34,830 nucleotides of DNA from Thermoplasmata archaeon (lineage in GTDB: Archaea; Thermoplasmatota; Thermoplasmata; Lutacidiplasmatales; UBA184). The notes below the pieces were generated by a model that made no database searches, was not told the origin of the DNA, and was given only the letters and a program-made list of their open reading frames with translations. The stretch covers positions 1-34,830 of the forward strand of contig JAKIWH010000009.1 in NCBI GenBank assembly GCA_022750125.1, in the 5' to 3' direction. Positions 8,867-22,768 of this stretch are shown here, one piece after another; positions within the stretch are counted from its first letter, which is position 1; every line of letters begins with the position of its first letter. The position numbers and the translations under genes are program-made.

Positions 8867-11188
8867 CTACGTCCCTTTCCAGCGCTTGCCGTCCGCCCGG
8901 AGCCGCTCGATGCCTCGCCAGACCTTGTCGGGCGTCACCGGAAGGTCGTAGAACCGGACCCCGACCGCGTCGTAGAGCGCGTTCCCGACAGCGGGCAGTA
9001 TGGCGACGAGCGGGCCCTCCCCGGCTTCCTTCGCGCCGAACGGCCCCTCCGGGTCGTCGGCGCCGACGAGGAGCACCTCCACCTCGGGCATCTGCTGCGG
9101 CGTGGGGATCTTGTACTCGAGAAGGGAGGGATTGAGGAGCCGCGAGCCCCGGTAGTTCATCGACTCGCCCATGAACTGGCCGAGTCCCATGTGGATCGAA
9201 CCCTCGATCTGTCCCTCCACGGCGAGCCGGTTGAGCGGCCGGCCGCAGTCGAAGGCCGCCCACACCTTTTCGACCGCGAAGAAGCCTGTCTCGGGGTCGA
9301 CCGACGCCTCCGCGACGTAGGCCGCGAACGAGTACGCGGGCGCCGTCCCGGCACGAGCCCCCTTGTGGGTGCCTCCCATCGGCGGCGAGGTGTACGCGCC
9401 GCTCGCTTGGAGCGCTCCGGAGTGTTCCATCGCCTTGTGGAGCGCTTCGAGGTACGAGACCCCCACGTCCGGCCTGTGCGCCACCTCGTACCGCTCCTCC
9501 CGCACCCGGAGCTGCTTCGCAGGATAGCCGGTAAGCTCGTGGGCGGCCGCGAGGAGGAGCGCGAGGAGCCGCTCCGAAGCCTGTCGGGCGGCGTTGCCCA
9601 TCATGAACGTGACACGGCTCGAGTAGCTCCCGATATCGACCGGTGAAACATCGGAATCGACCGGAACGACGTGCACCCGGTCGAGCTGTACCCCGAGCAC
9701 CTCGGCCACGATCGCGGCGAGGAGGGTGTTCGAACCTTGTCCGATGTCCGCCTGCATGCAGTGGACGGCGATGCCGCCGTCCATGTCCGCCTTCAGGTGC
9801 ACCGTGCACTGCGGCATCTTCGGGGTGAAGTGGATCGGGCTGTTCGAGCCCGAGATGTAGAAGCCGCAGCCGAGGCCGATCCCCCGGCCGTAGGGGAGCT
9901 TTCGGAACTTTGCGTCAAACCCGCTCCGCTCCCGCGCGGCTTTGAGGCATGCAAGGAACGAAGTGGAGGTGATCCGGAACTGGGTGATGGTCGTGGAGTT
10001 CGGGGGTAGGGCGTTGAGGTTCCGAAGCTCGAACGGATTCATCTGGAGCTTCTCGGCGAGCTCGTCGAGCGCCGTCTCGATCGTGTAACGCACGTTGGTG
10101 CCGCCGTGCGCCCGCATCGCGCCCGACGGGGGCTTCGTCGTGTAGACGCGACGGCCGTGGTACCGGAAGTTCGGGACGCGGTACGGTCCCATCGCGAGCA
10201 CCCCGTTGTAGTAGGTGGTGACCGTTCCGAACGAGCTCCAGGCCCCCCCGTCGATCACGGCGCTCAGGTCGTAGGCGAGCAGGTGACCTTCCGCGTCCGC
10301 GGCGACGCGGAGATCGTTCTGGGTCGGGTGGCGGCCGTGGTTCGTGAGGAAGACGTCCTCGCGGTCGAGGAGCATCTTCACCGGACGGCCGGTCTCGAAG
10401 GCGAGCGCGGCGCAGACGATCTCGTGCGGCAGCGGGTCCGATTTTCCCCCGAAACCCCCGCCCACCTCGGGTTTGAGGACTCGGATGCGGTGGAGCGGGA
10501 TGCCGAGCACCTCGGAGAGGGCGCGGTGAAGGTAGTGCGGCACCTGCGTCGCGCTCCACACCGTGAGGCGACCGTCCGGCGTTGCCTCCGCCATCGTGAC
10601 GAGCGGCTCGGTGAAGGCATGCGTGACGCCGGCGAAGTTCCCGCGGACTCGGACGGTGTGCGCGGCTTCGGCGAACGCCGCGTCGACGTCCCCGAAATGC
10701 TGGATCACCTCCTTCTGGATGTTCGAGCCGTTGAGCCCGCGGCTGTGGATCGGCTCCTCCACGGCCCCGAGCCCCACGTGCGGGTCGGAGTACTCGGGCA
10801 GCACCTCCGCGTCGACCCGGATCGCCTCGAGCGCCCGCTCGGCGGTGAGCTCGTCGGAGGCGGCGACCGCGGCAAGGATGTCGCCAATGTACCTGGTCTT
10901 CCCGACCGCGAGCGCCGTCTCGTCGTGGGTGATCGGCAGCACCCCGAAGGTAGTGGGGTACTTCTCCCCGGTGAGGACCGCCGCAACGCCGGGCATCGTG
11001 CGGGCCGCGGAGACGTCGATCGAGCGGATCCGGGCGTGCGGCCACGGGCTCCGCAGCAGCCGGCCGACGAGGAGGTTGGGGCGCGTCAGGTCGTCGGTGT
11101 ACTCGGCCCGTCCCGAGACCTTGAGCGGACCTTCGACGTACGGGATCCGCGTGCCGAGCAGGCGGTAGGGGTTCGCCTCAGTCGCCAC
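8867..11188 (-). CDS. Molybdenum hydroxylase Mo-cofactor subunit (xanthine dehydrogenase / HcrA-like)
   Basis: EVGGGFGGKSD, PPSGAMRAHGGTNVRYTIETALDELAE, DIGQGSNT, GAKEAGEGP catalytic-Glu region. Confidence 0.9.
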   Translation of the reverse strand: MATEANPYRLLGTRIPYVEGPLKVSGRAEYTDDLTRPNLLVGRLLRSPWPHARIRSIDVSAARTMPGVAAVLTGEKYPTTFGVLPITHDETALAVGKTRYIGDILAAVAASDELTAERALEAIRVDAEVLPEYSDPHVGLGAVEEPIHSRGLNGSNIQKEVIQHFGDVDAAFAEAAHTVRVRGNFAGVTHAFTEPLVTMAEATPDGRLTVWSATQVPHYLHRALSEVLGIPLHRIRVLKPEVGGGFGGKSDPLPHEIVCAALAFETGRPVKMLLDREDVFLTNHGRHPTQNDLRVAADAEGHLLAYDLSAVIDGGAWSSFGTVTTYYNGVLAMGPYRVPNFRYHGRRVYTTKPPSGAMRAHGGTNVRYTIETALDELAEKLQMNPFELRNLNALPPNSTTITQFRITSTSFLACLKAARERSGFDAKFRKLPYGRGIGLGCGFYISGSNSPIHFTPKMPQCTVHLKADMDGGIAVHCMQADIGQGSNTLLAAIVAEVLGVQLDRVHVVPVDSDVSPVDIGSYSSRVTFMMGNAARQASERLLALLLAAAHELTGYPAKQLRVREERYEVAHRPDVGVSYLEALHKAMEHSGALQASGAYTSPPMGGTHKGARAGTAPAYSFAAYVAEASVDPETGFFAVEKVWAAFDCGRPLNRLAVEGQIEGSIHMGLGQFMGESMNYRGSRLLNPSLLEYKIPTPQQMPEVEVLLVGADDPEGPFGAKEAGEGPLVAILPAVGNALYDAVGVRFYDLPVTPDKVWRGIERLRADGKRWKGT

Positions 11189-11669
11189 GCGGCTTCCCTC
11201 CGTTCACGGCGAGCACCGCTTCGATGATCTTCGTGTAGCCCGTGCATCGGCAAAGGTTTCCCGAGATGGCGCGCGCCACCTCCTCCCGATCGGGGTGCGG
11301 GTGGTCGCGCAACAGCGCGACCGACGTAAGGACGAACCCTGGAGTGCAGAAGCCGCATTGGGTTGCGCCGTGCTCGACGAACGAGCGCTGCACGGGGTGA
11401 AGCCCCTCTGCCGGCGTGACGCCTTCGATCGTGGTGACCTCGCGTCCCTCCGCGGAGCGAGCGAGCGTGAGGCAGCTCAAGGTGGGACGTCCGTCGAGCA
11501 GCACCGTGCAGCAACCGCAGGTGCCGAGATCGCAACCCCGTTTGGTGCCGGTGAGGCGGAGATCCTCACGGAGGAGGTCGAGCAGGATCCGTTCGTCGGG
11601 AACGGTCCGCTCCACGGCGGTGCCGTTTACCCGCGTCCTAAGGGGCCGAGATGTCATGCGCCTCCACAC
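11178..11669 (-). CDS. Molybdenum hydroxylase 2Fe-2S subunit (HcrC/CoxS-like)
   Basis: GTKRGCDLGTCGCCTVLLDG...QCGFCTPGF...GNLCRCTGY. Confidence 0.93.
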   Translation of the reverse strand: MWRRMTSRPLRTRVNGTAVERTVPDERILLDLLREDLRLTGTKRGCDLGTCGCCTVLLDGRPTLSCLTLARSAEGREVTTIEGVTPAEGLHPVQRSFVEHGATQCGFCTPGFVLTSVALLRDHPHPDREEVARAISGNLCRCTGYTKIIEAVLAVNGGKPRGD

Positions 11670-12477
11670 GTGCGTCTCCCTCAGCGGGAGGTGCCCGCGC
11701 CTCCGCTGCGCGGTGGTCGCGGATGACCTCCCCGACGACGCTCACGGCGATCTCCGAGGGTGTCTCCGCGCGGATGTCGATGCCGATCGGCGACCGAATC
11801 CGCCGGAGTTCGGACTCCGATAGACCAGCCCGGCGGAGCTCGGCGAAGACGTGCTCCCTCTTCGCCGCGCTCGCGATGAGCCCTACCTGTCCCGAGAATT
11901 TCCCGAGAGAATGGCGCAGCACCTCCGTGTCCTTCCGCGCATCGTACCCTAGCAGATAGAGGTGGGAGAACGCACTCGGCTCGAACCGATCCCAGAGCGC
12001 CTCGGCCGAGACTACCTCCCGGCGCTCGGCCTCGGGGAACCGGTCGAGGCTCACCCACTCGGGTCGGTCATCGGCCACCGAATAGTCGACCTCGAGCGCA
12101 GGAAGTAGGCGGGCGACGGCGAGCGCCACATGGCCCCCGCCCCAGAGGAGGAGGTTGGGGCGCGCTGGAACGTACTCCACCGCCACGTCGACGGAGCCTC
12201 CGCAGAGGCTGGGGAGTCCCCCCTCTTTCCACGCCTGGAGGTCGAAGTGGAGGAGTTCCCCGCGGTGCGTTTCAAGGGCGCGAGCCGCGGCCTCTTTCAC
12301 CCGCTCCTCGAGTGCGGCGCCTCCGACGGTCCCGAACGAGTCGCCGGTGGGCGTGCGCAGGAGCGTCGCGCCTTCCTTCGCCGGCACGGAGCCGACCATC
12401 TTCACGACGGTCGCGCGGACGAACGGTATCCGCTGCTCCATGAGGCGGAGGGCCAACCGCGTCAGCGCCCGGTCCAT
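11638..12477 (-). CDS. XdhC/CoxI family molybdenum hydroxylase maturation factor
   Basis: VVKMVGSVPAKEGATLL, LCGGSVDVAVEYV, LLLWGGGHVALAVARL. Confidence 0.88.
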   Translation of the reverse strand: MDRALTRLALRLMEQRIPFVRATVVKMVGSVPAKEGATLLRTPTGDSFGTVGGAALEERVKEAAARALETHRGELLHFDLQAWKEGGLPSLCGGSVDVAVEYVPARPNLLLWGGGHVALAVARLLPALEVDYSVADDRPEWVSLDRFPEAERREVVSAEALWDRFEPSAFSHLYLLGYDARKDTEVLRHSLGKFSGQVGLIASAAKREHVFAELRRAGLSESELRRIRSPIGIDIRAETPSEIAVSVVGEVIRDHRAAEARAPPAEGDARVEAHDISAP

Positions 12478-13100
12478 GGCTCCTCCCACTCGCTCCGGGT
12501 CCGCACCATCTGCTCGTACTGTTCGGGAGTATTCAGGTTCGCGGTGACGCCGGGATCGCTCACCGGGACGCGGACCACTTGGGGACCGAGCTCCGGGAGG
12601 AGCGCACGCAGCGGCGCGTCTCGCGCGAGAGCGAGCACCCTCGGGCGGACTTCTGGACGGAAGAGCACCGGATGTCCCCCGCGGCCCTCGTAGGTAGGGA
12701 CGAACCAAAGACCCAACGCGTCCGCTCGGAAGCGGTCGACGAGGGTCTCGAGTGTGGCGGCGCTTCCCAGCGGACAATCCACGGGCCAAAGCAGTATCGA
12801 CGCACCAGGATCGGTGGCAGCGAGGCCCGCCTGCACCGAACCCGTTCGACCCGCCGCCCACTCCGCGTTCTCGACGATCTCGTCGGGCCGGTTCTTTGCG
12901 AGGCTCAGGCTCGAGCGAATCTCGACCGCGTGCCGGCCCACGACGGCAACCACCGGCGAGAATCCCGCTTCCCGCGCAATGCGAGTAATTCGCTCGATCG
13001 CGCTCTCGCTCCCCAGGCGAAGCAGCGCCTTGGGGTGGCCACCAAACCGGGTCGAGGCCCCTGCCGCGAGGATCAGGGTCGCGCTAGCTTCCAAGGTCAC
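12462..13100 (-). CDS. MocA/MobA-like nucleotidyltransferase (Mo-cofactor cytidylyltransferase family)
   Basis: LILAAGASTRFGGHPKALLRLG...WPVDCPLGSAATLETLV...GHPVLF. Confidence 0.85.
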   Translation of the reverse strand: MTLEASATLILAAGASTRFGGHPKALLRLGSESAIERITRIAREAGFSPVVAVVGRHAVEIRSSLSLAKNRPDEIVENAEWAAGRTGSVQAGLAATDPGASILLWPVDCPLGSAATLETLVDRFRADALGLWFVPTYEGRGGHPVLFRPEVRPRVLALARDAPLRALLPELGPQVVRVPVSDPGVTANLNTPEQYEQMVRTRSEWEEPWTGR

Positions 13101-15641: not shown

Positions 15642-16094
15642 ATGGCGCGGAACGTGCCGTGGTTTCGTAAATCTGAGGAAACGGCAGCCCCAGCGAGCCC
15701 GCGGACCGATTCCCCGGCCCCCGCGGCCGGCACCCCGCTGACCGCGGCCCTCCCTTCCAAGCCAGGACCTTCCTCCTCGGCCGGGAATCGCTTCCGGATC
15801 CGGACGAGTATCGGGAGTCCAAGGATAGGGGCCATCGTCGGTGGGGAGGTAATCTCGGGCTCCGTCCGGCGCAGGATGTCCGTGCGGCTTCAGTCCGCCG
15901 ACGATGGAGCCGTGCGACCAGCGCCCATCGAGATTGTAGAGATCACCCGCCAAAAGTCGATGAAGGTCGTTCTCTACCGGGGGCAGAATGTGGAGTCCTC
16001 CGAAGAGGCCACCCCGGCGTCCGGAGAAGTGGGCATGAAATTGAAGGGTATGCAGTGGAGCGAGCTGAAGCCCGGTGACTTGCTTCTCGGCTAA
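15642..16094 (+). CDS. Small protein with Pro/Ala/Ser-rich N-terminus and EF-Tu domain II-like beta-barrel
   Basis: IVGGEVISGSVRRRMSVRL...IEIVEITRQKSMKVVLYRGQNVE...GEVGMKLKGMQWSELKPGDLLL resembles translational GTPase domain 2. Confidence 0.6.
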   Translation: MARNVPWFRKSEETAAPASPRTDSPAPAAGTPLTAALPSKPGPSSSAGNRFRIRTSIGSPRIGAIVGGEVISGSVRRRMSVRLQSADDGAVRPAPIEIVEITRQKSMKVVLYRGQNVESSEEATPASGEVGMKLKGMQWSELKPGDLLLG

Positions 16095-16422: not shown

Positions 16423-17952
16423 ATGTCCACCGACACCGAGAACCTCGCCTCCCCGCCCTTCCCGGCGCAGCGAGAGCGTCACATCCTCGTCCTCGACCTT
16501 TCGAAGAGCATGCTCGCGCCGCTCCCGGACCCGACGAACCCGGGGCAAGACCAGCAGAAGATCGAGGTCGCAAGAACGGCCGTCTACCGCATCCTCGAGA
16601 ACGCGGCCACCACCGGCGCCGCGTTCGGTCTCGTCACCTTCACCGAGACCCCGCGCGTCGCCGTCCCGCTCACGGAGATGCGCCGGGACATCTTGCCCTC
16701 CGTGGAGGGGCTCATCTCCATGCTCCAGCCGAGCGGACGCTCGGCGATCTGGGACGCGCTTGCGCTCGCGGCCGATCTCTTGCGGTCGATGAACGGCGGG
16801 GTGCGGGGCACGATCGTGCTCGTGACGGACGGGTGGGACAACGCTTCCACGCGGTTCACCGTATACCATCCGGAGATCCCTGTCCCCACGCCAGGTCCGA
16901 AGCTCAACCTCACCGAGTATCTCCTGCCGCACAACTCGGAGCTCGTGCTCCGGGTCATCGGCATCGGGAGCGGGGGGGAGCGCGACAAGGGCGTCGACTC
17001 GGGTCGCATGGGCACCTTCCTCGGCGAACTCGAGCGGCGGAGCCGCGACCTCGCGCTCGCCTCGAGCTTCTCCTTCCAGGAGGTGGTGACCGGCTCGCAG
17101 CTGTTCAGCCAGATGGTGCACGCCTTCCTGGACGTCGGGTTCGAGGAGTCCCGGCCGTTCCACGAGTTGCATCCCGAGGAGCTCGCACGGCACGCCGCGA
17201 GCGCCGCGCGGGCGCTCAAGGACCCCGAGCAGCACGCTACGGTCGGGAGGCTTTCCGGTCCACGATCCCCAGAATCGACTGGCCCCGGGGGCGCCGGTAA
17301 GCCCGCTCCCTCCGACGGGACGCCGCTCGAGGTCGACATCGTCGAGACGCCGGGCGGTACGGCCCCGGCCTACCTTCGGGACCGGTACGGCCCCCTCGGC
17401 GTGGTCATCGAATCGTTCCTCGCGGGAGAGTACGACCGGGCGTACGACCGTCTCGAGCGCGCCCGCTCCATCCTCCCCCCCGTTACCCTCCTCTACTGGG
17501 AGGCGCGGATCCAGTTCGCGAAAGGCCAGATCGTCGAGGCGGCCCGCTCCCTCTTGCGCGCCTGGTCGGCCGCGGAGCAGCTCCCGAGCTCGGACCGGCC
17601 TCGGATCATCCGTAGGCTCGCGCTCCTGCAGGCCCGCATGCAGAGCGACCGCGAGACCGAGACCCTCGTGCGTTTCATGGACGAGACGGAGAGCCGTCTC
17701 GGCAAGGGGGACCCGAAGGTGAAAGAGCGGGTCCTCAATCTGTTTGAACGGCTGATGGACCTTCGCAGCACCTACCAGCTCACCCGGATCGAGGGGGCGG
17801 CGAGCAGCTCCGACGGCGCGGTGCGGCACGAGGACGCGGTCGAGCAGGCGTTCAGCGCCCTGCAGGACGCACGGCTCGAGAACCTCTCGGGGGACCCCGG
17901 CGTAGAGGGTGCGCTTGACTTCATCGAGATCTGCCTCGCGGAGATGCGGTAG
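16423..17952 (+). CDS. von Willebrand factor A domain protein with C-terminal helical region
   Basis: MIDAS-type HILVLDLSKSM, SGRSAIWDALALAADLL, IVLVTDGWDN. Confidence 0.88.
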   Translation: MSTDTENLASPPFPAQRERHILVLDLSKSMLAPLPDPTNPGQDQQKIEVARTAVYRILENAATTGAAFGLVTFTETPRVAVPLTEMRRDILPSVEGLISMLQPSGRSAIWDALALAADLLRSMNGGVRGTIVLVTDGWDNASTRFTVYHPEIPVPTPGPKLNLTEYLLPHNSELVLRVIGIGSGGERDKGVDSGRMGTFLGELERRSRDLALASSFSFQEVVTGSQLFSQMVHAFLDVGFEESRPFHELHPEELARHAASAARALKDPEQHATVGRLSGPRSPESTGPGGAGKPAPSDGTPLEVDIVETPGGTAPAYLRDRYGPLGVVIESFLAGEYDRAYDRLERARSILPPVTLLYWEARIQFAKGQIVEAARSLLRAWSAAEQLPSSDRPRIIRRLALLQARMQSDRETETLVRFMDETESRLGKGDPKVKERVLNLFERLMDLRSTYQLTRIEGAASSSDGAVRHEDAVEQAFSALQDARLENLSGDPGVEGALDFIEICLAEMR

Positions 17953-17968
17953 GGGAACCCGGGGACCG

Positions 17969-19141
17969 ATGCCAGAGAAGACCGGGACCAAGAGCCGCAC
18001 CAAGGGGCCGGCGCGCAAATCCGAGGCGAAGGGACCCGCGGCCGACGCGGCGCGCATCGCGGTCGTGGGCATCCCGGCCTCCGGGAAGACCACCTTCTTC
18101 CGGTTCCTCTCGGGCCATTTCGGCCTGAACCTGCCCATCGTCTACGTGCCGACCCGCACGGACGGCTTCTCGCTCCCGCTCTACGGGGACCTCGACAGCG
18201 ACGTCATCCTCGAGGAGACGACGTACGAGACCACCGACCCGACCGACCCCGAAGGAGGGATGGAGACGACGACCCGGCTCTACGTGAACCGGGCGATGGA
18301 GGACAAGAAGAAGCTCTGGGTCGAGCTCGCGGCCGGACGGGAGGAGCAGGGGATCCTCACGAAGTACCCGCTTCCGACGAAGTTCAACCAGTTCGTGGAG
18401 ATGAAGCTCCACTTCCGCTACGGTCAGCCCGCGATCGGCAACGCCGTCTCGCGGCCGATGATCCTCCACACGATCGACGAGGCGGGGGGGATCATCTCCG
18501 ACTACTTCACCTCCGACCGGCTCTGGATCGATTCCGTCGACAAGGAGGTCGACGAGAAGAGCTGCCGCGTCATCCCGCACTTCGACAGCTGGCGACCGGA
18601 CCGCCGGGACCTCTGGCGGCGGGGCCTCACCCTCTTGGGCCACTTCGTTGCGGAGGCGGACGGCGTCATCCTGCTCCTCTCCCCCGCGCTCCCCTCGCTC
18701 CGCGACCAGGCGCAGCAGGTGAACCTCGCGCGGGGCGTCTTCCGCTACTGCCGCACGCACAACATCCCGCTCGTCCTCGCCGTCTCGAAGGCGGACAAGC
18801 TCCGCGAGTTCTACGGGGAGATCGAGCACGTCGTGAAGGACCGCGGCTACAAGAGCGGCTTCGACACGAACGAGTTCCTCGTCCAGCGGGACGGTGCCGG
18901 TCTCGGCACCATCCTGGTCGCGAACGAGGGCCGGGGCATCTCGACCAAGGAGGATGTCTTCCTCGTCTCCTCGGCGGTCTCGAGCGGCGAAGGGGTGCCG
19001 ATGCTGCTGCGCGACTTCGGACTCTTCCCCGACGCTGAGCCCGGCGAGGTTCCCGGCGTACCTGTGATGGTCAACACCACTCTCCCCCTCGCGCGGGCGT
19101 GCGAGCGCGTGCTCGAGCGGAGAGCCACGAAGGGCGGGTGA
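17969..19141 (+). CDS. P-loop GTPase-like protein with long insert between G1 and G3
   Basis: G1 GIPASGKTT, G3-like IDEAGG, G4 SKADK, G5-like SSA. Confidence 0.8.
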   Translation: MPEKTGTKSRTKGPARKSEAKGPAADAARIAVVGIPASGKTTFFRFLSGHFGLNLPIVYVPTRTDGFSLPLYGDLDSDVILEETTYETTDPTDPEGGMETTTRLYVNRAMEDKKKLWVELAAGREEQGILTKYPLPTKFNQFVEMKLHFRYGQPAIGNAVSRPMILHTIDEAGGIISDYFTSDRLWIDSVDKEVDEKSCRVIPHFDSWRPDRRDLWRRGLTLLGHFVAEADGVILLLSPALPSLRDQAQQVNLARGVFRYCRTHNIPLVLAVSKADKLREFYGEIEHVVKDRGYKSGFDTNEFLVQRDGAGLGTILVANEGRGISTKEDVFLVSSAVSSGEGVPMLLRDFGLFPDAEPGEVPGVPVMVNTTLPLARACERVLERRATKGG

Positions 19142-22100
19142 TGCCGGCGTCCGCGGAGGCCGCGCCCGCCGGAAGCTCGGGCCTCCCCTCCCCCGCGACC
19201 GAAGGACAGCCCGGCTCGGGCGCCTCGGGACCGGTCGCCGTCGTATGGTGCCGTCAGGTCGACAACGAGGCGGAAAGCCCCGGGTACACGACCGTCCCCG
19301 ACGACTTCCCGGGCCGGCGCGAAACGCTCGAGGTGATCCGGCTCGTCGGGAACCTCACCATCAACGTCGCGGACACCCAGGACTACTGGACCCCGGGACC
19401 CCCCGCCCCGCTCTCCTACTACCCGAACCTGTTCCTCTATCCGGCGTTCGGCGGAAGGTACACGTGCGTCGGCCGGATGTTCCTCTCGACCGAGGACCGC
19501 CCCCGCCTCGGGATGAAGACACTCGTTCTCGATACCTCCCAGCTCCTCGCGACCGGCGAGTTCGGCCCCGCGCTCCTGCGTTGGCACGCGACGATGGCGG
19601 GCGCGCGCAGGGAGGGGACCCGGCCTCCCCCCGTGCCGGACCCGCGCCTCTTCCCCCTACTCGGTGAGGGGTTCCTCTTCCAGCGCGGCTCGACCGACCC
19701 CGTCCTGGTCGTCGCCTCCGCCGATTGGGACCAGGCGATGGAGGGGATCTTCGAGCTCGTCCGGAGCATGCCCGCCTCGCTCCTCATGCTCGGTGCGATC
19801 CTCGCCTTCCCGTACTTCCTTCCCCAAGCGAAAACGAACCTGCACGAGTTCTGCGAGCAGCTTCCCCTCGCGCTCGCCCTGATGCGGATCCCGGCGCTCG
19901 AGGCGACGGGGGACCGGCTCAAGAAGCGGATGCAGAGCTGGGAGAGCGCGCCGGTCACGCTCCGCAACCTCCTGGACGGGATCCCCGAGCCTTCCGGTAA
20001 GGGGAAGGACACGGTCCCGCTCGTCCTCCAGCTCGTTCGCGACCAGAACGCCTCCCGTCTCGGGCCGATCGCGCAACGGGTCGACCTCGTGGAGCTGCCG
20101 AAGCTCCGCGGGATGCTCGCGGATCCCGAGCGGCAGGGCGGCAAGGAGCGGCGGAAGGAGATGTGGCGGATCGGCACAGCGATGGAAAGCGCCGCCCTCC
20201 TCCTTCAGCGCGCACGTGGTCGGCACGTTCCCGTGAGCGTCGAGACGGCGAAGCGGGCGCAGTCGTACCTCCAGGCGCGTTTGCCCGCCAAGGGCGGCGA
20301 GCTGGAGGCTGACGCCGAGAGCGCGGTGGTGGCTCCCGAGACGAACGGAGCGGTCGCCGCGACGGGAACGACCGCGCCGACCTCGGCGCATCCGCCCTGG
20401 CTCATCAAGTCCGCCCCGCTTCCTCTCGCGCGCAGCCCACCCGAAGTGGTGCCGGTCTCGCGGAGCGACGACCCTTCGACGCTTCCTTCGGCGCGGCCGC
20501 CAAGCCCCCCCAGCGAGCGGGCGCATGCTCCCGGCCCGATTCTCCCCTCCGGGGTTCCCTCCCCGGTCTCCGCGCCGCAGCTTCCACCCGCAGACCTCCG
20601 GCGCGAGATCGAGGCGACCGTGAACCGGCTCCTCGAGCTCCGCGAGGCGGACGCGGTGAGCCGGCTCCTCCCGAGGCTCGCCCCCGAGCTGCTCGCCCGG
20701 GCGCAGAGCGAATCCGACGCCCGCAACGAGGCCCGGATGAAGTCCGTCCTCGAAGTGGAAGAGTCCCGCCTCTCGAGTGCGATTCGTGAGCTCGAGAGTC
20801 GCTGGCAGGCGAAGCTCGCGGCCCCCTCCACGGTGAGCCCCGAGCTCGTGAAAGCGATCATCGAGCTCGCCGACGCCCGCGTTTCGGTGCAGAGCACGGA
20901 GCTCACGGGACGGTTCAGCCAGCGGCTCGGCGAGACGGAGAGCCGTCTCACCCAGCAATCCACGGCGCTCCTCGCGTCGACGGAAAGCCGGCTTCGGGAG
21001 TCGCTCGTGAGCGCGCTCGGTGTCGAGGTGGACCGACGAGCGAAGGCTCTCCTCGAACGCGAGCTCGCGCTCTCCCAGAAAGGCGAGCCGGCGGGCAAGA
21101 TCACCGAAGCGACACGGGCCGCGGTCTCGGCTCAGCTCGCAGCAGCGCTCACGAAGTCGCAGCAGGAGCTCGAGGCGAAATGGGAGGAGAAGCTCCGGCA
21201 AGCCGCCGGCTCGACGCCGCTCTCGGGGAAGGCACTCGAGGCGGTCAACGCTCTCATCGACCAGCGCGCGAACGAGGTGAACGTGGCGACGCAACGCGCT
21301 CGTGATGAGCTGCGGACCGCCGTGCTCACCCAGGCCGAAGCGCAACGCGCGGTCGCTACCGCCCAGCTCGAGGAGGAGCTCCTTCAGGCGATGGCGAAGG
21401 AGATGGACGTCCGGAGCGAAGAGCTCGCTCGGTTGCGCGACAAAGTGCTGGAACGGTTCCAGGAGGGGGACGGCCGACGGCTCCAGGAGGCGCGAGCAGC
21501 GGAGGAGCGCTCTCAGGCGATGTTCGAGACCCGAGTCCGTGAGCTCGGAACCAAGGCGGCCACGAGCCTCAAGGAGTCGGAGGGCCGGCTGCGCGCCCTC
21601 CTGGACGAGCGGGCGGCCACCCAGGAGAACCGGCTCAAGGAGGAGCTCGACGGCAGGATCCAGGCGCTCCGCGATCTTCAGGGACACGCGGACGCCGACC
21701 TTCAGGTCCGGCTTCAAGGCTACATCGACCAGAAGCTCCGCGAGGCGACCGAGGCGCACCGCGAGATGGTGGTGAACCTCCTCGCCCGGATGAAGGGGGA
21801 GGTGGTCGAATCTTCCCGGGACCGGGGCATCGACGCCACGCGCCTCGAACCGCTCCTGCGCGAACGGTTCCAACGGGCCGCAGACACGCTCCGCTCCGAT
21901 CTGCTCCTGACGGTCGAGCGGAAGATGGGGGAAGCGGAGGACCGGCTCCTTCACGCGGGCGGCGAGCGGGTCCAGCGGCTCGAATCGGTCGACCGGAACA
22001 TCCAGGACCAGTCGAAGGAGCTGCTCCGGATCGAGGAGGGGCTCCGGACGGAGCTCGGGGACCTCGAGCGGCGGATCGCTGTCCTCTCCGACCGGCTCGT

Positions 22101-22488
22101 GCCCGTGGTGCGCAAGAGCTGGCTACGGATCGCGGAGCTCGAGAAGGGCGGCGGCGGTTCTTCCGGCGATGTGGACCTCCGTCTCTCCCAACTCCGCCGC
22201 GAGCTCAAGGAGGAGCTCCGACGGCACGATGGCGAGATCGCGGACCGGGTCCGAGAGATCCGCGACCGGATGGAGACGACGATCGCCCACCAGGGGAAGG
22301 TTTGGCTCACCCTCATCCATCAGCTCTCGCAGCTCACCGAGGATCGCCGAAACCTCGCCCCGGGGATCCCGCTCGCCGCCGCGGCGCTCGCCCAGGAGCT
22401 GCCCGACCTCGAAGGAGCCCACGAGGAGTCCGAAGAGGAAGAGCGACCGTACCGCCGCCGATCCCGCCGCCCGAGCCGATCGGCTTAG
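19141..22488 (+). CDS. Giant (about 1115 aa) protein: globular N-terminal domain, Pro-rich linker, long coiled coil
   Basis: N-term VAVVWCRQVDNEAESPGYTTVPDDFPGRRETLEVIRLVGN...; heptad-rich from about residue 480 on; overlaps GTPase stop by 1 nt (TGATG). Confidence 0.85.
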   Translation: MPASAEAAPAGSSGLPSPATEGQPGSGASGPVAVVWCRQVDNEAESPGYTTVPDDFPGRRETLEVIRLVGNLTINVADTQDYWTPGPPAPLSYYPNLFLYPAFGGRYTCVGRMFLSTEDRPRLGMKTLVLDTSQLLATGEFGPALLRWHATMAGARREGTRPPPVPDPRLFPLLGEGFLFQRGSTDPVLVVASADWDQAMEGIFELVRSMPASLLMLGAILAFPYFLPQAKTNLHEFCEQLPLALALMRIPALEATGDRLKKRMQSWESAPVTLRNLLDGIPEPSGKGKDTVPLVLQLVRDQNASRLGPIAQRVDLVELPKLRGMLADPERQGGKERRKEMWRIGTAMESAALLLQRARGRHVPVSVETAKRAQSYLQARLPAKGGELEADAESAVVAPETNGAVAATGTTAPTSAHPPWLIKSAPLPLARSPPEVVPVSRSDDPSTLPSARPPSPPSERAHAPGPILPSGVPSPVSAPQLPPADLRREIEATVNRLLELREADAVSRLLPRLAPELLARAQSESDARNEARMKSVLEVEESRLSSAIRELESRWQAKLAAPSTVSPELVKAIIELADARVSVQSTELTGRFSQRLGETESRLTQQSTALLASTESRLRESLVSALGVEVDRRAKALLERELALSQKGEPAGKITEATRAAVSAQLAAALTKSQQELEAKWEEKLRQAAGSTPLSGKALEAVNALIDQRANEVNVATQRARDELRTAVLTQAEAQRAVATAQLEEELLQAMAKEMDVRSEELARLRDKVLERFQEGDGRRLQEARAAEERSQAMFETRVRELGTKAATSLKESEGRLRALLDERAATQENRLKEELDGRIQALRDLQGHADADLQVRLQGYIDQKLREATEAHREMVVNLLARMKGEVVESSRDRGIDATRLEPLLRERFQRAADTLRSDLLLTVERKMGEAEDRLLHAGGERVQRLESVDRNIQDQSKELLRIEEGLRTELGDLERRIAVLSDRLVPVVRKSWLRIAELEKGGGGSSGDVDLRLSQLRRELKEELRRHDGEIADRVREIRDRMETTIAHQGKVWLTLIHQLSQLTEDRRNLAPGIPLAAAALAQELPDLEGAHEESEEEERPYRRRSRRPSRSA

Positions 22489-22579: not shown

Positions 22580-22768
22580 ATGGACGACGAGCACCGCCAC
22601 TGCAAGGTCTGTGGGAAAGTCTGCGACGTCGATGAGGAGGTCTGCAGCACGTCCTGCGCGACGAAGCGTGAGGAGAGGAGGCAGTCGAGTCGGAACCTCA
22701 AGTGGATGCTCTACGGTGGGATGGCGGTCATCCTCTTGCTCTTCGTCGCGTCCTTCCTCCACGCCTAG
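22580..22768 (+). CDS. Small zinc-ribbon (DUF2116-like) single-TM protein
   Basis: HCKVCGKVCDVDEEVCSTSC + KWMLYGGMAVILLLFVASFLHA. Confidence 0.7.
   Translation: MDDEHRHCKVCGKVCDVDEEVCSTSCATKREERRQSSRNLKWMLYGGMAVILLLFVASFLHA

Follow-up and report, generated by a model that had tools for sequence, protein, structure and literature searches.

A vWA, GTPase and coiled-coil-like protein trio is inherited as a unit in one family of archaea and may form a cellular GTPase module

What would an archaeon do with three tightly packed genes for a vWA protein, a GTPase and a very large, mostly helical protein, and do these genes form a conflict system or a component of the cell? We addressed this question for a trio carried by a Thermoplasmata archaeon on contig JAKIWH010000009.1 of assembly GCA_022750125.1; the window refers to the whole stretch of 34,830 nucleotides that was analyzed. 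The source genome is a 1.9-Mb assembly of 146 contigs (87% complete), and its close relatives are metagenome-assembled genomes (MAGs) of the acid-soil order Lutacidiplasmatales (PMC9287336). The family carrying the trio is known from MAGs alone, and all the evidence presented here is computational. The original prediction had likened the trio to bacterial conflict systems that associate vWA, GTPase and GAP1-type proteins. Our analysis favors a different reading, to which we assign a probability of about 0.5: the three genes would encode a single, vertically inherited cellular GTPase module made of a switch, a coiled-coil regulator or scaffold, and a vWA-TPR adaptor. The three genes, the last of which encodes a protein referred to as P3, are the following.

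16423-17952, + strand: vWA-TPR protein, first gene of the trio, 509 aa, ATG start (Pfam and alignment of 37 orthologues)
17969-19141, + strand: Ras-like (TRAFAC-type) GTPase, 390 aa, ATG start, long insert between motifs G1 and G3 (invariant motifs, weak Pfam matches and structure model)
19141-22488, + strand: P3, 1115 aa, ATG start, with a globular head, a linker and a long helical tail (open reading frame and comparison of orthologues)

As initially reported, the genes are tightly packed on the same strand: 16 nt separate the vWA and GTPase genes, and the start of P3 overlaps the stop of the GTPase gene as TGATG. The GC content at third codon positions ranges from 0.87 to 0.92 and orthologues are kept in dozens of genomes, confirming that these open reading frames are real genes. 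None of the three proteins showed a transmembrane segment.

Profiles of the GTPase and of the P3 head were each searched against 293 Thermoplasmatota genomes. The GTPase was found in 31 and the P3 head in 30 of the 37 genomes of the family (Lutacidiplasmatales). In genome G030, the contig ends within the P3 gene; genome G026 (64% complete) contains a vWA fragment and was left undecided. No relative of the trio was detected in order-mates belonging to other families or in other Thermoplasmatota among these genomes, and no relative of the GTPase was found in viral contigs and phages. A collection-wide genome scan was also carried out by exact peptide patterns, which reach close relatives only.

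The trio is arranged as vWA-GTPase-P3 in 31 of the 37 family genomes, and wherever it is present its order and strand are constant. In genera g1, g5, g6 and g7, it lies between eS17 (with eIF6) on one side and a small zinc-ribbon/transmembrane (TM) gene followed by a CoaD-like nucleotidyltransferase gene on the other, in agreement with the housekeeping neighborhood first proposed. In genus g3 (L092, L097, L100, L103), the trio is intact and these flanks were not found around it. Furthermore, all three genes are absent from five g5 genomes (G014, G027, G032, G034 and G036). Four of these genomes show an empty site, with only some 160-210 bp separating eS17 from the zinc-ribbon/TM gene (L215-L218); the fifth carries both flanks on a single contig, about 9 kb from each other, with no trio between them. 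On a tree of four core genes, two changes of state account for the distribution of the trio, and the starred branches force only one. The constant order, the intact trio of g3, the joint absences and the tree indicate that the three genes are gained and lost together, that the cell can do without them and that their inheritance is vertical. Our observations thus support that the trio is one unit, and its co-conservation in related genomes, on which the original prediction had staked itself, was confirmed. The very stable gene order around the trio in g1, g5, g6 and g7 could also be read as three unrelated genes kept together by synteny only; however, the trio is intact between different flanks in g3, and the five losses removed all three genes and only these, which already largely refutes this explanation and leaves it extremely unlikely.

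One locus carrying the trio (L049, DAIDCO010000028.1) is titled "bacterium isolate clean3188". It contains the archaeal trio flanked by archaeal eIF6 and eS17, and its title looks mislabeled.

The conserved residues of the first two proteins are consistent with a metal-binding adaptor and a nucleotide switch. The vWA gene product matched VWA_2 (2e-14) and VWA (1.4e-10) of Pfam, with a weak TPR_19 match (0.015) in its C-terminal half. The metal ion-dependent adhesion site (MIDAS) appeared intact from the DLSKS motif, and the alignment of 37 orthologues bears this out: D25, S27, S29 and D136 are invariant, as is S107 at the T/S position, in keeping with a DxSxS motif followed downstream by T/S and D. 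In the same number of orthologues, the GTPase motifs are invariant or nearly so (G1, G-I-P-[AS]-S-G-K-T-T; G3, D-E-A-G; G4, S-K-A-D; and a G5-like S-A), so that G1, G3 and G4 of a P-loop GTPase are all kept. G1 and G3 are approximately 130 residues apart, which upholds the long insert noticed at first.

16474-16845, + strand: vWA domain with MIDAS (DLSKS at residues 25-29; D136) (Pfam match over residues 21-141)
18068-18091, + strand: G1/P-loop GIPASGKT, residues 34-41 (alignment of 37 orthologues)
18476-18487, + strand: G3 DEAG, residues 170-173 (alignment of 37 orthologues)
18785-18796, + strand: G4 SKAD, residues 273-276 (alignment of 37 orthologues)

Pfam returned only sub-threshold P-loop/GTPase matches for the GTPase, and neither NCBIfam nor PADLOC gave anything above threshold for the three proteins. 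Foldseek searches with a structure model of the GTPase (predicted local distance difference test, pLDDT, 62) matched Ras and Rab27B with probabilities of 0.84-0.87. Many kinesins were also matched, with probabilities up to 0.57, and were discounted on account of the low pLDDT and of the P-loop core that they share with the GTPase.

P3 has no Pfam match, and no family was found for it in either Pfam or NCBIfam. Its globular head extends to about residue 380 and is followed by a Pro/Ser/Ala-rich linker (residues ~385-480), then by a stretch of about 600 residues in which A, E, L and R abound. Among 35 orthologues, the mean column identity of the head is 53%, and a loop located after the first strand, RQVDNEAESP, has 9 of its 10 residues invariant, the remaining one (A44) being conserved in at least 90% of the sequences. 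The C-terminal part of the head has a second, weak match in a 734-aa open frame of genome G013 (contig 40, 4577-4864, E 7.1e-4), which is a possible paralogue.

19237-19596, + strand: longin-like part of the head, residues 33-152 (AlphaFold2 model m60822a3a5a70; Foldseek longin matches 8yqg and 4zy8)
19252-19281, + strand: near-invariant loop RQVDNEAESP after strand 1, residues 38-47 (alignment of 35 orthologues)
19702-19968, + strand: DENN-like alpha/beta part of the head, residues 188-276 (AlphaFold2 secondary structure)
20020-20274, + strand: helical (dDENN-like) part of the head, residues 294-378 (AlphaFold2 model)
20578-22395, + strand: helical, coiled-coil-like tail of variable length, residues ~480-1085 (hydrophobic period and lengths)

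The tail has a hydrophobic period of approximately 3.7, with a power of 2.48, a value reached by none of 500 shuffles (95% of which remained below 1.29). Given this period, we regard the tail as helical and coiled-coil-like, closer to a hendecad than to a clean heptad pattern; its sequence would fit a long helix or a coiled coil of the hendecad type. Complete copies of P3 span 578 to 1330 aa across genomes, with most of the variation in the tail, indicating that the length of the tail is not constrained. The size, globular N-terminal domain and helical extension attributed to P3 at the outset are therefore correct.

A tail of about 600 helical residues, with strong periodicity and variable length, could also belong to a structural or cytoskeletal protein. 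P3 would then form filaments or long tethers whose position is set by the GTPase and which would serve cell shape, division or the placement of chromosomes, and its head would serve for dimerization or anchoring rather than regulation. The kinesin matches of the GTPase model could be cited in its favor, and Thermoplasmata are generally expected to lack a cell wall. However, the kinesin matches come from a model of low confidence and involve a common P-loop core, and the head, with its near-invariant RQVDNEAESP loop, is conserved far beyond what simple anchoring would need. We consider this role of P3 quite unlikely.

An AlphaFold2 model built on the 35-sequence head alignment reached a pLDDT of 84.6 and a predicted TM-score of 0.84. 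In this model, residues 33-152 form a strand, a loop, a helix, a three-stranded meander and two helices, as in longin domains. Residues 188-276 follow a beta-alpha-beta-alpha-beta-alpha-beta order, and residues 294-378 form long helices. The order of these elements (longin-like, alpha/beta, helical) is the same as in longin-DENN-dDENN proteins. The DENN module has been described as a succession of longin, DENN and d-DENN that was assembled in the eukaryotic stem lineage, and its longin and DENN domains contact GTPases in known systems (PMC3521125). A Foldseek search of the head against the PDB gave a sole match below 1e-3, 7mge_C (E 7.4e-4, probability 0.66). Entry 7mge holds C9orf72 and SMCR8, which is also a longin-DENN protein, and we read chain C as C9orf72. 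Lower matches included the Lokiarchaeal longin 8yqg and the longin of Lst4 (4zy8), with E-values of 0.7-1.5. Against viral proteins, nothing scored below 0.02 with this fold.

Several observations weigh against this interpretation. The superposition on 7mge_C is poor (global TM-score 0.20, root-mean-square deviation 19.8 Å), suggesting that the placement of the domains differs or that the match is partly fortuitous, and the head model leaves the second longin strand unresolved. No DENN-type Pfam match was found for the P3 heads, and hhalign comparisons of the head with DENND1A/B, for which we used approximate fragments corrected from the PDB alignment, yielded P values of 0.27-0.57, that is, no support for DENN at the sequence level. 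On the side of its partner, the GTPase model is of moderate quality only (pLDDT 62), and the putative interaction between the GTPase and P3 is deduced solely from the pairing of their genes. To find a DENN-like module in an archaeon would be notable, but it is unproven. In the boldest reading, to which we give a rather low probability, P3 carries a true longin-DENN-type module working with its own Ras-like GTPase in a non-Asgard archaeon; bacterial and archaeal GAP1 proteins would then perhaps be divergent versions of this module, and DENN-type regulators would predate eukaryotes instead of having arisen in their stem lineage.

GTPase-centric conflict systems are composed of DO-GTPases, GAP1 proteins and variable effectors in mobile neighborhoods, and also occur in a few archaea (Kaur et al. 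2020, PMC7159879). In bacteria, the DO-GTPase gene is followed by the GAP1 gene, and vWA proteins have been reported in GAP1-N2 systems (PMC7159879). The trio could accordingly be seen as a divergent archaeal anti-invader switch of this kind, with P3 as the GAP1 protein and with the vWA protein and the tail as accessories. Its layout is that of L144, a locus from other Thermoplasmata in which a DO-GTPase2 gene (8.7e-12) is overlapped by the gene of a weak GAP1-N2 protein (E 0.012). This protein falls below the Pfam cut-off, suggesting that GAP1 is probably under-annotated in archaea. Likewise, in our bacterial control L151 (GAP1-N2 PF20013, 1.8e-18; GAP1-M PF20014, 1.3e-8; DO-GTPase2), a vWA-like protein is encoded near the GAP1-N2 locus.

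At the level of sequence profiles, the resemblance to GAP1 is marginal. None of the 35 P3 heads matched GAP1-N/M of Pfam at E<=10. PF20014 was absent from genome G000, and the other family genomes searched contained one sub-threshold match located outside the trio (G008 contig 24, E 0.216). Comparison of the whole head with GAP1 sets of only 5-6 sequences by hhalign gave P values of 0.057-0.09, and 1 of 60 column shuffles scored higher (empirical p ~0.03). A search of plasmids for additional GAP1 sequences recovered only two near-identical Rhodococcus plasmids. P3 and GAP1-N/M share in-register Q-V...G-Y and beta-alpha-P motifs, the latter being a 31-column match to GAP1-M within residues 188-276 with a marginal P value of 0.0035.

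The GTPase was compared in the same way with the DO-GTPases (PF19975/PF19993). DO-GTPase2 matched 7 of the 37 orthologues, with a best E-value of 0.013 that is below the curated cut-off, and PF19993 had no match in the 12 genomes of family f1 that were searched. With hhalign, the GTPase aligned to six DO-GTPases with a P value of 7.8e-7 and a score of 53.7, above HflX (P 1.4e-3). However, a single FeoB-like sequence (L185) scored 59.2, indicating that the match to DO-GTPases reflects mostly the P-loop and is not specific; we therefore did not retain it as specific evidence of membership in this group. The Walker B (G3) glutamate of the GTPase lies at another position, in an invariant DEAGG where the DO-GTPases compared have DxAGE.

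PF19993 matches in the order-mates G037 and G039 were considered as orthologues and rejected, as they are HflX. More generally, DO-GTPase2 of Pfam matches HflX proteins near its cut-off (L142, 9601-10821; L141), so that genome scans may easily mistake HflX for a DO-GTPase. Apparent operons of DO-GTPase and GAP1-like genes occur in other Thermoplasmata (L144, 4959-14087; L148; L149; L150). DO-GTPase2 proteins of another Thermoplasmata family (L145-L147) have no recognized GAP1-N-like neighbor, and HSP70-type genes are found next to them in L145 and L146.

Finally, the surroundings of the trio differ from those of conflict systems. No effector recurs beside it, as originally remarked: where the 3' flank could be read, the next conserved gene almost always starts within about 120 bp of P3. 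The insertions found after P3 are few and differ (genes of phosphate transporter and kinase type in L065, a regulator of the helix-turn-helix type in L048/L108, and a secreted protein on the opposite strand in L043), hence there is no recurrent effector. No second GTPase, GASH or FNIII gene recurs either, and no PADLOC defense family was detected. Rather than variable effectors and a mobile distribution, we found the same neighbors, a mostly fixed site and a vertical pattern. A conflict role for the trio is not indicated, and a divergent DO-GTPase/GAP1 switch is in our view an unlikely explanation. What survives of the analogy is a unit combining a GTPase switch with a large partner encoded downstream; the resemblance to GAP1 systems is one of layout, not membership, and the trio may be a distant relative of them in kind. 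The trio looks like a settled component of the cell, not a mobile antiviral system. A conflict label given by analogy that fails on mobility, effectors and membership is a warning.

The insertion of L065 (14229-19299) measures 5 kb, starts right after P3, carries phosphate-ABC-transporter-like and adenylylsulfate-kinase-like genes and, among the loci compared, occurs in UBA61 only.

Molybdenum-hydroxylase-type genes, as read from their translations, are located in the window at 8867-12861, 5-8 kb upstream of the trio, and assembly systems are known in which an NTPase has a vWA protein as its partner (PMC7159879). Together these could speak for an assembly or cofactor-insertion chaperone, in which the GTPase and the vWA protein would mature an enzyme on P3 as a scaffold, as in MoxR-vWA and other NTPase-vWA pairs. 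However, the trio has no AAA+ MoxR partner, the molybdenum-enzyme genes persist in genomes devoid of the trio, and no His/Cys-rich metal-binding stretch was seen in the GTPase, which makes such a chaperone very improbable.

Downstream, the zinc-ribbon/TM gene (22580-22768, + strand) encodes a protein of 62 aa, partly Cys-rich and zinc-ribbon-like, with a single TM helix. It starts approximately 20-120 bp past the stop codon of P3 in most genomes and is possibly cotranscribed with the trio. We consider it a neighbor and not a core part, because it also adjoins CoaD in genomes without the trio. Between eS17 and the vWA gene, a 150-aa open reading frame (15642-16094, + strand) has a very weak match to EF-Tu domain 2 (E 0.013); its only counterpart in the loci compared is that of the near relative L042.

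Under the cellular GTPase module that we favor, the product of the second gene would cycle between GDP- and GTP-bound forms, and its invariant motifs make nucleotide binding and hydrolysis very likely. The head of P3, with its longin, DENN-like alpha/beta and helical parts, would bind the GTPase and set its nucleotide state, as suggested by the gene overlap, the joint loss and the longin/DENN-like model. It could act as a guanine nucleotide exchange factor or as a GTPase-activating protein, the direction of regulation being conjectural. The composition and variable length of the tail suggest a tether or scaffold whose reach varies, while the vWA-TPR protein might hold a client or a complex partner through its MIDAS metal site and helical repeats. 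Within its single archaeal family, the trio is transmitted vertically, for the most part at one fixed locus flanked by translation genes; it is dispensable, having been lost whole in one or two lineages. As a first guess, its most likely use would be the spatial organization of the cell, such as polarity, envelope or trafficking-like tethering.

Should the head of P3 prove to be a DENN module that has its own GTPase in Thermoplasmatota, archaea would offer a way to test the origin of these regulators, which have otherwise been described from eukaryotes. Even without DENN, the trio remains a clean GTPase module restricted to one family, with a partner that has no Pfam or NCBIfam family, and its natural deletion lineages provide controls. 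No name or description of the trio was found in the part of the literature that was searched.

Comparison with known systems places the trio close to several of them. Like C9orf72, SMCR8, FLCN/FNIP and DENND1, P3 is predicted to have a head in which a longin-like part, an alpha/beta sandwich and a helical part follow each other, its top PDB match belongs to an entry containing C9orf72, and its partner is presumably a small GTPase. Unlike these longin-DENN proteins, P3 is archaeal, shows no detectable sequence similarity to them and superposes poorly overall; it also has a dedicated neighboring GTPase, a coiled-coil-like tail of about 600 residues and a vWA partner gene. As in DO-GTPase/GAP1 systems, the GTPase gene is directly followed by that of a large partner sharing short motifs in its N-terminal part, and vWA proteins occur in GAP1-N2 systems. 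In contrast, the trio lacks a GAP1 Pfam match, its single GTPase is not specifically of the DO type and carries neither zinc ribbons nor TM segments, and its fixed chromosomal locus is devoid of FNIII, GASH and effector genes. MoxR-vWA systems also couple a vWA protein with MIDAS to an NTPase, which is an AAA+ MoxR protein instead of a GTPase. In MglA/MglB, a Ras-like GTPase is likewise encoded beside a regulator of a related fold class (roadblock/longin), whereas the regulator of the trio is much larger and comes with a vWA protein; no roadblock Pfam match was found anywhere in the source genome. The trio is best called a variant of the known pairing of a GTPase with a dedicated regulator.

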